Shown here: positions 7,001 through 8,471 of the stretch, piece by piece
Layout of the letters: every line of letters starts with the position of its first letter
Position numbering within the stretch: the first letter of the stretch is position 1
Translations under genes and position numbers: made by a program
Assembly: GCA_021646465.1 (NCBI GenBank)
Contig: SOET01000021.1
Coordinates: 1 to 64,000 of the forward strand
Reading direction: 5' to 3'
Length of the DNA: 64,000 nucleotides
Source of the DNA: Candidatus Kuenenia hertensis
GTDB lineage: Bacteria; Planctomycetota; Brocadiia; Brocadiales; Brocadiaceae
The notes under the pieces: model-generated
The model's database searches: none
What the model was told of the DNA's origin: nothing
What the model saw: only the letters and a program-made list of their open reading frames with translations

Positions 7001-7910
7001 CATTATGATTTTTTTTCATATCAATGACATAATTTAAACATTCAAGGGCGGTAGCCAATTGTCCTTCCCCTCTTCGTATAAATTTCAGAGCCATGAGTTC
7101 CACATTAAAATTTACCCCGACGATTCCTACCCCATTCCCCTCAACGGCACCGATTACCCCTGCCACTGCCGTTCCGTGTCCACCCTGTATGTCGTTTGCA
7201 TCCTCCATGGGGTTGCCTTCTCCTCTGCCGTCATCTGTGGTGTTTATGCCATGGATATCGTCAATATATCCGTTGTTGTCATCGTCTGTGTTGTTCCCCG
7301 CGATCTCACCGGGATTTATCCACATATTGTCTGCGAGATCCTCGTGGGTATATTCGATCCCTGAATCCACCACCCCTACGACGATTTTCGGATTGGGGGA
7401 AGGGTCTCCGTTAAAGGTGTCCCATGCCTCAACAGCGTCAATATCCGCATCTGAAGTTCCCCCCGTTTGGCCGGTATTGTGTAATGCCCATAATGACAAG
7501 AAATCCGTATCGGTGGGAATATAATCCTCGTAATAGATAAAATTCGGTTCAGCGTACTTCACATTCGGGTTTTTTTCATACACCCGTGCGAAATCATTGA
7601 CGTTGCTTCCTTCAGGCAGTTGTATGTGGCTGATGCCGAATTCCTTAAATGAGGTGATCTCTTTTCCGCCGAGGGCTTCATTCACGGCGTCAATCGCCTG
7701 TTGCGAAACGTGTTCATTGAATGTAACGATTAATTCACCCTTTACATATTCAAAGGGGCCACGGTAAGGGTCATCGGGGGTGCTTTCGCCATAAGAACCT
7801 TTTACGGTACTGGTCAAATGCAATACCGTTATGGTGAAAAGAAGGAAAAGCATCAGCAAAAATCTCTTCCATTTTGTTCTTTGAAAAAGTGGTACAATAT
7901 TGTTTTTCAT
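4023..7910 (-). CDS. Secreted S8 subtilisin-like protease with IPT, kelch and fibronectin-like modules
   Basis: The 1295-residue protein is probably exported. It starts with a basic N-terminus and hydrophobic stretch (about 16-38), then a subtilase prodomain (about 50-130). The S8 catalytic domain (about 135-470) has Asp182 (VVDSG), His245 (GGHGT), oxyanion Asn342 and Ser410 in GGVSMS, a variant of the usual GTSMA. An IPT/TIG fold follows (about 475-555), then kelch repeats with YAIGG/YVCGG-type motifs (about 560-865). After these come a beta-rich segment, a fibronectin III domain (about 965-1060), a jelly-roll-like segment and a final beta domain. No PEP-CTERM, LPXTG or type IX tail is apparent. 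RBS AGAGGAGAAG precedes the ATG. A c-di-GMP riboswitch and terminator lie in its leader, so expression probably responds to that second messenger. Substrate unknown; an adhesion or matrix role is inference. Confidence 0.9.
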   Translation of the reverse strand: MKNNIVPLFQRTKWKRFLLMLFLLFTITVLHLTSTVKGSYGESTPDDPYRGPFEYVKGELIVTFNEHVSQQAIDAVNEALGGKEITSFKEFGISHIQLPEGSNVNDFARVYEKNPNVKYAEPNFIYYEDYIPTDTDFLSLWALHNTGQTGGTSDADIDAVEAWDTFNGDPSPNPKIVVGVVDSGIEYTHEDLADNMWINPGEIAGNNTDDDNNGYIDDIHGINTTDDGRGEGNPMEDANDIQGGHGTAVAGVIGAVEGNGVGIVGVNFNVELMALKFIRRGEGQLATALECLNYVIDMKKNHNVNIRVLNNSWGGGPYSQALSDAIDELKANDILFIGGAGNLSRDTDVSAYYPASFPNDNVISVAGTDFNDSMVSYSSFGASTVDVFAPTENIRTTMLNNSYTSAGGVSMSVAYTTGLASLLFGYYPSATYADVRDIIFSTVDRPVTIPSGKTITGGRINANNALNPDYPGSLPPVVTKIVPVFGSIGATVTINGSHFGVTEGSVTFNGIPTAISTWSDTEITCTVPDGAATGKIEVTTNSSVSNPTNPIFTVSCMDSRGAMPTAVYRPAVAVHNGKIYAIGGFTLTLLSTGQVVNEDADFVQIYDTLTDTFSTTTDANGNDVGKPTSASNACAATIDGKIYVAGGYVPTTPPTRLDVLEVYDIASNTWDTTKAPLPKGLSGASAVALNGMLYVMGGASTGVSGDFVDEKELYRYDPVVDTWTQLSPMSTNRTFFGAAVINGKIYVCGGHGDAGFLNSTEVYDPSTDTWTPLAPMNFARYDFGCVAISGKLVAFGGNDSVESPPFFDSVEIYDPETDQWSIHDCPLSIARQGVRGAVVDNNVYALCGMNGPQSLYNVIDVLQFDSIEDIIPDQFLFIDQTDVSLSTLIISNAITVTGINTAAAISIAGNNGEYSVNGGAYVTTAGTVNEGDTVTVRQTSSANFSTTTDTTLTIGGVSDTFSVTTLAADPTPTAPSNLVTTALNDKQIDLNWTDNSSNETGFRIERSLDQSNWTEIATTGTDVNNYTDSGLSASTTYYFQVRAYNDAGNSVYSNIASATTNASPPSTVEYYATSETAVSGQISGVYTDTWEDDDFPQVITEIESGGKPSNRYSYLEHTWHFTISAGFSVTFYANVYKSNSSEDNFIFQYSTDGQNFINIAEVNSTDINNVEVWQLPTTLSGEVSIRVIDSDRNQGNNNLDSISIDQMFIQVESDTQGIDLSATGYKVKGVQYADLTWSGANSAQVEIYRDGALIDTVDNTGAYTDNIGSKGGGAYTYQICESGGGSCSNTVEIVF

Positions 7911-8107
7911 TTCTTCTCCTCTCTCTAAAAGCGCTACAGGATATTATGAATAATGCATATTTATAATCACACACCTAATTTACATTTTCCATACCCACAA
8001 GAGATGCCACTCATTGGGGTATATGATAAAGTTTATTAGGTTCATATAGTATTGTGTTGGCCGGTGGTTCTGAAATTAACAATTTCTATCTCAGCAAAAA
8101 CAAAAAA

Positions 8108-8138
8108 ACCCAGGACAAGTACGAAACTTGTCCTGGGT
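8108..8138 (-). terminator. Intrinsic terminator in the subtilase leader (riboswitch expression platform)
   Basis: A 12-13 bp stem has arms 8109-8120 (CCCAGGACAAGT) and 8126-8137 with a 5-nt loop. Read on the minus strand it is followed by seven U residues. It lies between the c-di-GMP aptamer and the subtilase start, about 200 nt upstream of the ATG. The + strand reading also ends in a T-run after TCTTCGG, so it may act both ways. The segment just 5' of the stem on the minus strand can pair with the aptamer P2 arm, which would compete with stem formation. Confidence 0.85.
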
Positions 8139-8265
8139 CTTCGGTTTTTTTTAAAGCCTTTTTAAATTTCTATAGCATAATTAATAAAGCATCATTATTT
8201 TTTAGATTTGAATGATACTTTATCAATTCAAAGAAAGCGCCGTAATCAGTCTTTACACCTTATTA

Positions 8266-8343
8266 AGGCGGCAACCTGGCATTCTTCCTTTAAAACGAAG
8301 ACCCATGGCTTTGCGTCCCAACCTCACGATTGGTTTGCCGTTT
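8266..8343 (-). promoter_or_regulatory. Cyclic-di-GMP class I riboswitch (GEMM-I) aptamer
   Basis: Read on the minus strand the segment has the GEMM-I consensus. It opens with GGCAAACC, a stem closed by the GNRA tetraloop GUGA, then GGGACGCAAAGCC. The second stem (GGGUCUUC/GAAGA) follows, and the 3' end is GCCAGGUUGCCG. By eye-alignment to the Vibrio cholerae Vc2 aptamer, the base equivalent to G20 is G, which favours c-di-GMP over cGAMP. It sits in the leader of the secreted subtilase gene, upstream of an intrinsic terminator. P2 arm bases 8292-8305 are complementary to 8134-8148 next to the terminator. This predicts that ligand binding frees the terminator and turns the gene off. A promoter is uncertain: TTGACT (8378-8373) and TATAAA (8350-8345) are present but poorly spaced. 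Confidence 0.9.
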
Positions 8344-8471
8344 TTTTATACACCTACCATATTAAATGTATAAGTCAAGAAAATAATTGTTTGTTGTATT
8401 GTTAATACTCCTGTTTTTGGCGAAAAAAATCATTGTTCCTCAGAAGCTTTGTGTGTGAAATCAGAAAGATT

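Follow-up and report, generated by a model that had tools for sequence, protein, structure and literature searches.

Both the class I c-di-GMP (GEMM-I) aptamer and the OFF logic built upon it are already known. A proven OFF riboswitch of this class is found in the flagellar operon of Clostridioides difficile; in this element, Cd1, the antiterminator uses the 3' strand of the aptamer (G147-C87, C148-G86), and a P1 helix was not detected by NMR (PMC9262584). The pilM riboswitch of Geobacter metallireducens (GEMM-Ib) has the same aptamer fold, and its terminator is made with the aptamer's own 3' strand (PMC9262584), an arrangement that returns in ON-type copies of the genome considered here (L013, L015, and others). 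Bc1 of Bacillus thuringiensis joins a class I aptamer to a long expression platform with intrinsic terminators (PMC11218506). In the open-access literature, no earlier description was found of an antiterminator that takes the 5' strand of P3, nor was any paper found there on c-di-GMP riboswitches in anammox bacteria. These bacteria live as granules or biofilms, and wastewater plants depend on them; to our knowledge, little is known about the control of their cell surface.

The window, which is the whole analyzed stretch of 64,000 nucleotides, comes from Candidatus Kuenenia hertensis. Since HZS_alpha (hydrazine synthase alpha) is present in the genome, the anammox host suspected in an earlier sequence-only reading is supported; the genome also contains 25 GGDEF matches. 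On the minus strand of the window, the leader of a subtilase/kelch gene carries an element (Table 1) that is probably a class I c-di-GMP riboswitch and, as judged by folding predictions, would act as a transcriptional OFF switch.

Table 1. Features of the leader and its gene, in window positions.
Feature	Position	Strand	Details and basis
Putative promoter	8351..8378	-	-35 TTGACT 8378-8373, spacer 16 nt, weak -10 TAGGTG 8356-8351; by eye
c-di-GMP class I (GEMM-I) aptamer	8266..8348	-	RF01051 67.8 bits, RF03167 59.0 bits
P3 5' strand UGGGUCUUCG = antiterminator 5' strand	8296..8305	-	conserved core 8305-8298; register common to 26/26 first-set loci
Predicted spacer hairpin, 18 bp, A+U-rich	8179..8228	-	minimum-energy fold prediction
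Switching strand CGAAGACCCA = antiterminator 3' strand	8134..8143	-	overlaps terminator 5' arm at 8138-8134; sequence and folding
Intrinsic terminator	8102..8138	-	13-bp stem 8138-8108, T tract 8108-8102; -27.0 kcal/mol
Shine-Dalgarno AGGAG, subtilase/kelch gene	7916..7920	-	sequence
Regulated subtilase/kelch gene, 1295 aa	4023..7910	-	Pfam

The aptamer and its ligand class

The GEMM-I aptamer proposed for the leader was confirmed by the RF01051 search that the sequence-only reading had suggested, the direct match at 8349-8267 scoring 67.8 bits versus a cut-off of 35. The match reported by cmscan is to RF03167 (c-di-GMP-I-GGC) at 8348-8266, with 59.0 bits (E 2.2e-11), exactly at the cut-off of 59; both families belong to the same Rfam clan, and the clan competition of cmscan conceals an overlapping match that is ranked lower. 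P2 comprises 8338-8313 and is closed by a GUGA loop, while P3 spans 8310-8273, and the arm that had been called P2 in connection with the switch is P3 instead. By hand alignment to the Vc2 numbering, we take G8339, A8312, and C8271 to be the equivalents of the ligand contacts G20, A47, and C92, all of which are present in the window aptamer. The "GGC" in the name c-di-GMP-I-GGC presumably denotes ligand-contact bases; after P2, at position 47, the window has GACGCAAA against GACGCGAA in the RF03167 consensus, and the consensus G of this variant is absent. We rejected the idea that RF03167 points to another class of ligand in view of the higher RF01051 score, the G at position 20, and GACGCAAA in place of GACGCGAA, and c-di-GMP is kept as the expected ligand on the strength of the RF01051 score and the latter difference. 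P1 is weak or absent, its positions being mostly unpaired in the Rfam alignment. Since Cd1 likewise is without a detectable P1 (PMC9262584), the missing helix is not decisive.

Terminator, antiterminator, and the proposed switch

Between the aptamer and the gene, where an OFF riboswitch would need it, sits the intrinsic terminator, the stem of which runs from A8138-T8108 to T8126-A8120 around the loop 8125-8121; the terminator reported earlier is thus verified. Also borne out by the sequence is the complementarity between 8292-8305 and 8134-8148, with T8305-G8296 facing A8134-C8143 (10 bp), C8144 bulged, and T8295-T8292 facing A8145-A8148. The complementary strand had been said to overlap the 5' side of the terminator, which holds for A8138-A8134 only; the remainder of the switching strand lies just upstream of the 13-bp stem, where pairing with the U tract would be weak at most. 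The spacer between aptamer and terminator measures about 125 nt, and its predicted hairpin would bring the two closer to each other. Past the T tract, the leader continues for about 190 nt before the AGGAG of the gene. TTGAC boxes are similarly placed, by eye, before several related aptamers (e.g., L002, L011, L012, and L118). A short motif, GGTGTAAA, is found 3' of the aptamer at 8259-8252 of the window and also in L011, L012, L018, and L202; in some of these copies it closes a small hairpin.

Folding of growing transcripts was computed as the equilibrium at each transcript length, without ligand, which speaks to the mutual exclusion of folds and not to kinetics. P3 predominates until the polymerase is beyond 8140. 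For 3' ends between 8136 and 8110, the antiterminator (8304-8296 with 8135-8143) has a probability of 0.85-0.98, with 0.98 for transcripts ending at 8134-8112, and P3 is gone; at 8126, the antiterminator state is calculated at -62.8 versus -51.4 kcal/mol for the aptamer state. When the 3' end reaches 8108, the terminator stands at 0.97, and P3 is back at 0.64. Folding therefore predicts an antiterminator made of one aptamer and one terminator strand and mutually exclusive with the terminator, as expected for an OFF riboswitch, and the ligand-free alternation postulated from the sequence is reproduced in these predictions. In a control in which 8150-8126 was shuffled 300 times, P3 pairing of at least 0.9 was obtained in 7 of the 300 cases, none of which was as high as the native 0.998.

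In the proposed switch, the polymerase would make the aptamer first, with P2 and P3 predicted to fold. Upon binding of c-di-GMP, P3 would be locked and 8143-8134 left to its partner farther downstream, so that the terminator would form and halt transcription before the gene. Without c-di-GMP, 8143-8134 is predicted to invade P3 by pairing with 8305-8296, which would open the aptamer, deprive the terminator stem of its 5 basal bp, and part the remaining stem from the U tract, so that the polymerase would continue into the subtilase/kelch gene. As a ligand-locked P3 would lead to termination, production of the secreted protease should fall at high c-di-GMP, which usually goes with the sessile state. 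Part of the weight against the OFF switch would come from the weak P1, the poor -10 box, and the species-specific locus.

Related loci and other layouts

The OFF architecture is not peculiar to the window gene. Eighteen RF01051 matches occur in the same genome, 12 of which combine P3 UGGGUCUU with a terminator that stands apart downstream and has a 5' arm complementary to this strand. Order-wide, P3 UGGGUCUU is set against terminator AAGACCCA in 34 loci, and 32 of these have 6 or more contiguous pairs, G-U included, the exceptions being L202 and L210 with 5 contiguous pairs only. A first set, retained from 38 loci of the raw script class A after those with other P3 strands had been dropped, shows one register in 26/26 loci and switch-like folding in 23/26; among eight loci added later, 3 are clear switches in folding and the others are weak or do not flip. 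The class counts are lower bounds, since the scan finds loci by their aptamer motifs and so misses degenerate aptamers; owing to the common descent of the loci, the counts are not independent either. As evidence that the pairing exceeds chance, the recurrence of the design in 34 loci outweighs the shuffle control.

The conserved core of the antiterminator comprises 8 bp and is almost invariant, so that no compensatory covariation is visible in it; past this core, neither covariation or pairing (P 0.62) nor contiguous length (P 0.24) in the first-set loci is above shuffles. Of the 14 antiterminator pairs proposed initially, related loci conserve the first 8, whereas the pairs beyond do no better than shuffles, and the 10 + 4 pairs are thus to be read as 8 conserved pairs with local extras. 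Coupling was further approached through discordant cells, in which the terminator 3' arm has a U or a mismatch where P3 offers a Watson-Crick partner, the base kept by the 5' arm being scored. By hand count, 12 cells have the P3-fitting base and 3 the terminator-fitting one (sign test, P 0.035). Nine of the P3-fitting cells are at pair 6 (two in L003 and one each in L010, L012, L029, L118, L206, L209, and the window locus, L009) and the others at pair 1 (L043, L109, and L131); the terminator-fitting cells are in L026, L202, and L210. Support from these cells is moderate, because the nine pair-6 cases still allow a terminator G-U pair and the loci are related. In other planctomycete classes, the P3-strand platform was not seen by eye in a small sample (L164-L183); within the planctomycetes sampled for comparison, it may be lineage-specific.

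Several copies have unusual surroundings. Tandem units, each an aptamer with its own terminator, stand two in a row on contigs C38 (L003/L005), C5 (L006/L007/L017), and C17 (L004/L008) of the same genome (G000); on C5, a third, degenerate aptamer (L017) stands before a large secreted protein, part of which is a chondroitinase-B-like stretch. L010 (G000:C37:38867-38947; L162) is a complete OFF-type riboswitch with terminator, and the next 2.8 kb or so contain no gene on its strand. Its read-through transcripts would cross an FGE-sulfatase-domain gene (L162 2778-4292, minus strand) in antisense orientation, and L010 is possibly an antisense-acting riboswitch.

The opposite layout is present in the same genome. 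In L013, L015, L016, and L018, the terminator takes its 5' arm from the 3' strand of the aptamer itself (GCCTTACTGCC or similar), for which reason ligand binding should prevent termination; script classification assigned 49 loci of the family to this ON type. L014 (G000:C24:9748-9838; L163) looks related to these copies, albeit with a less clear assignment than the four named. The genes that follow it encode a PAS histidine kinase, a response regulator, and a GGDEF-EAL protein, and a c-di-GMP feedback loop is possible at this locus. Loci of a third class, from genus g6 (e.g., L019, L021, and L064), have P3 CCACTGGCC and are without a terminator, and, by eye, a CAGCAC upstream of their Shine-Dalgarno region GGAGGTGCTG can pair with it, pointing to translational control. 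Use of c-di-GMP-I riboswitches is unusually heavy in genus g11 of the same family (G020 and others), where all genomes have 19-56 RF01051 matches, with up to 56 in one 4.1-Mb genome, versus 1-3 in most other genomes of the phylum-wide sample that have any.

On balance, we lean slightly toward the view that the order runs a large two-signed c-di-GMP regulon via one aptamer class, comprising OFF switches, in which the terminator 3' arm would imitate the P3 5' strand, ON switches with the aptamer 3' strand in the terminator, and terminator-less copies of translational appearance. The modules would multiply by duplication, and new surface-protein genes would acquire them, a course that the window locus seems to have taken in one species. 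Such a lineage-wide regulon would be more interesting than the single switch of the window.

The target locus, competing explanations, and known systems

The regulated protein of 1295 amino acids has a hydrophobic N-terminal segment, a fervidolysin-like propeptide, and S8 subtilase (PF00082, E 5e-36), TIG, kelch, and Fn3 domains according to Pfam, in agreement with the secreted subtilase/kelch target named before. Alignment by eye of the protease domain with deseasin MCP-01 (3vv3) finds the catalytic Asp, His, and Ser in place. A paralog in the same genome (G000:C58:94766 onward; L061) is 92% identical over 867 residues (1-867) and ends in Laminin_G_3 repeats, unlike the window protein; it has no homologous leader and no riboswitch. 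The pair thus has the N-terminal two thirds in common under different control. Named relatives in the genome_contigs collection are partial matches only, mostly to kelch or Fn3. In two genomes of the same genus (G001 and G002), no protein match was obtained at E 1e-100, and both gene and riboswitch are absent beside the syntenic block, the genes of which we take, with the help of Pfam, to be LpxD/LpxI/DTW; an ortholog comparison is therefore precluded. Over 106 nt, the platforms of the window and of L011 share 75% identity. Taken together, the absence from the sister genomes, the riboswitch-free paralog, and the likeness to L011 suggest that the riboswitch-gene pair is recent and seems to have been assembled from a duplicated module.

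It is unlikely that aptamer and terminator are real but uncoupled, with the terminator serving to attenuate transcription or to end a short leader transcript, and a P3 match that comes from an ancestral module and has no function at present. Descent could carry the match, given the likeness to L011, the core is without covariation, and L202 and L210 retain terminators despite their 5 pairs to P3; however, bases fitting P3 and not the terminator 3' arm are retained 12 versus 3, and the window antiterminator is among the strongest of the layout set (ddG -12.3 kcal/mol). A recently captured riboswitch that is decaying or weakly active before this gene would agree with the vacant syntenic site in two same-genus genomes, the poor -10 box, the missing P1, a paralog that works without riboswitch, and at least one degenerate copy in the genome (L017). 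Yet the aptamer core residues, the antiterminator, and the terminator are all intact, and Cd1 is functional without a detectable P1 (PMC9262584), which leaves this history quite improbable.

That the aptamer senses another cyclic dinucleotide, be it cGAMP or the ligand of the c-di-GMP-I-GGC group, if different, is suggested by RF03167 as clan winner exactly at its cut-off, but the higher RF01051 score and the divergence from the RF03167 consensus after P2 make it very improbable. Moreover, G20 has a role in ligand choice, G20A being the change studied for cGAMP binding (PMC6274999), and the window has G at this position. Least probable is the ON polarity that other copies of this genome seem to have (e.g., L013, L015, L016, and L018): there, the aptamer 3' strand supplies the 5' arm of the terminator, whereas the terminator of the window lies 125 nt downstream and has no base in common with the aptamer, and the sole strong competitor found by folding pairs with the 5' strand of P3.

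The OFF switch predicted for a secreted protease, together with the ON-type switches of the same genome, would directly link c-di-GMP to the cell surface, and the parallel copies would constitute a natural experiment in which one aptamer is wired to opposite outputs. Among the described systems, pilM is an ON switch for cGAMP, whereas the window element is laid out as OFF with G at position 20 (PMC9262584). Bc1 differs by two terminators and by combined control of transcription and translation, and a P3-strand antiterminator is not described in the accessible part of its report (PMC11218506). With Cd1, the window element would share the class I aptamer, the transcriptional OFF logic, the separate downstream terminator, the antiterminator formed with an aptamer strand, and the lack of a stable P1. 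The antiterminator of Cd1, however, takes the 3' strand of the aptamer, whereas that of the window would take the 5' strand of P3, before a different target and in a different phylum.
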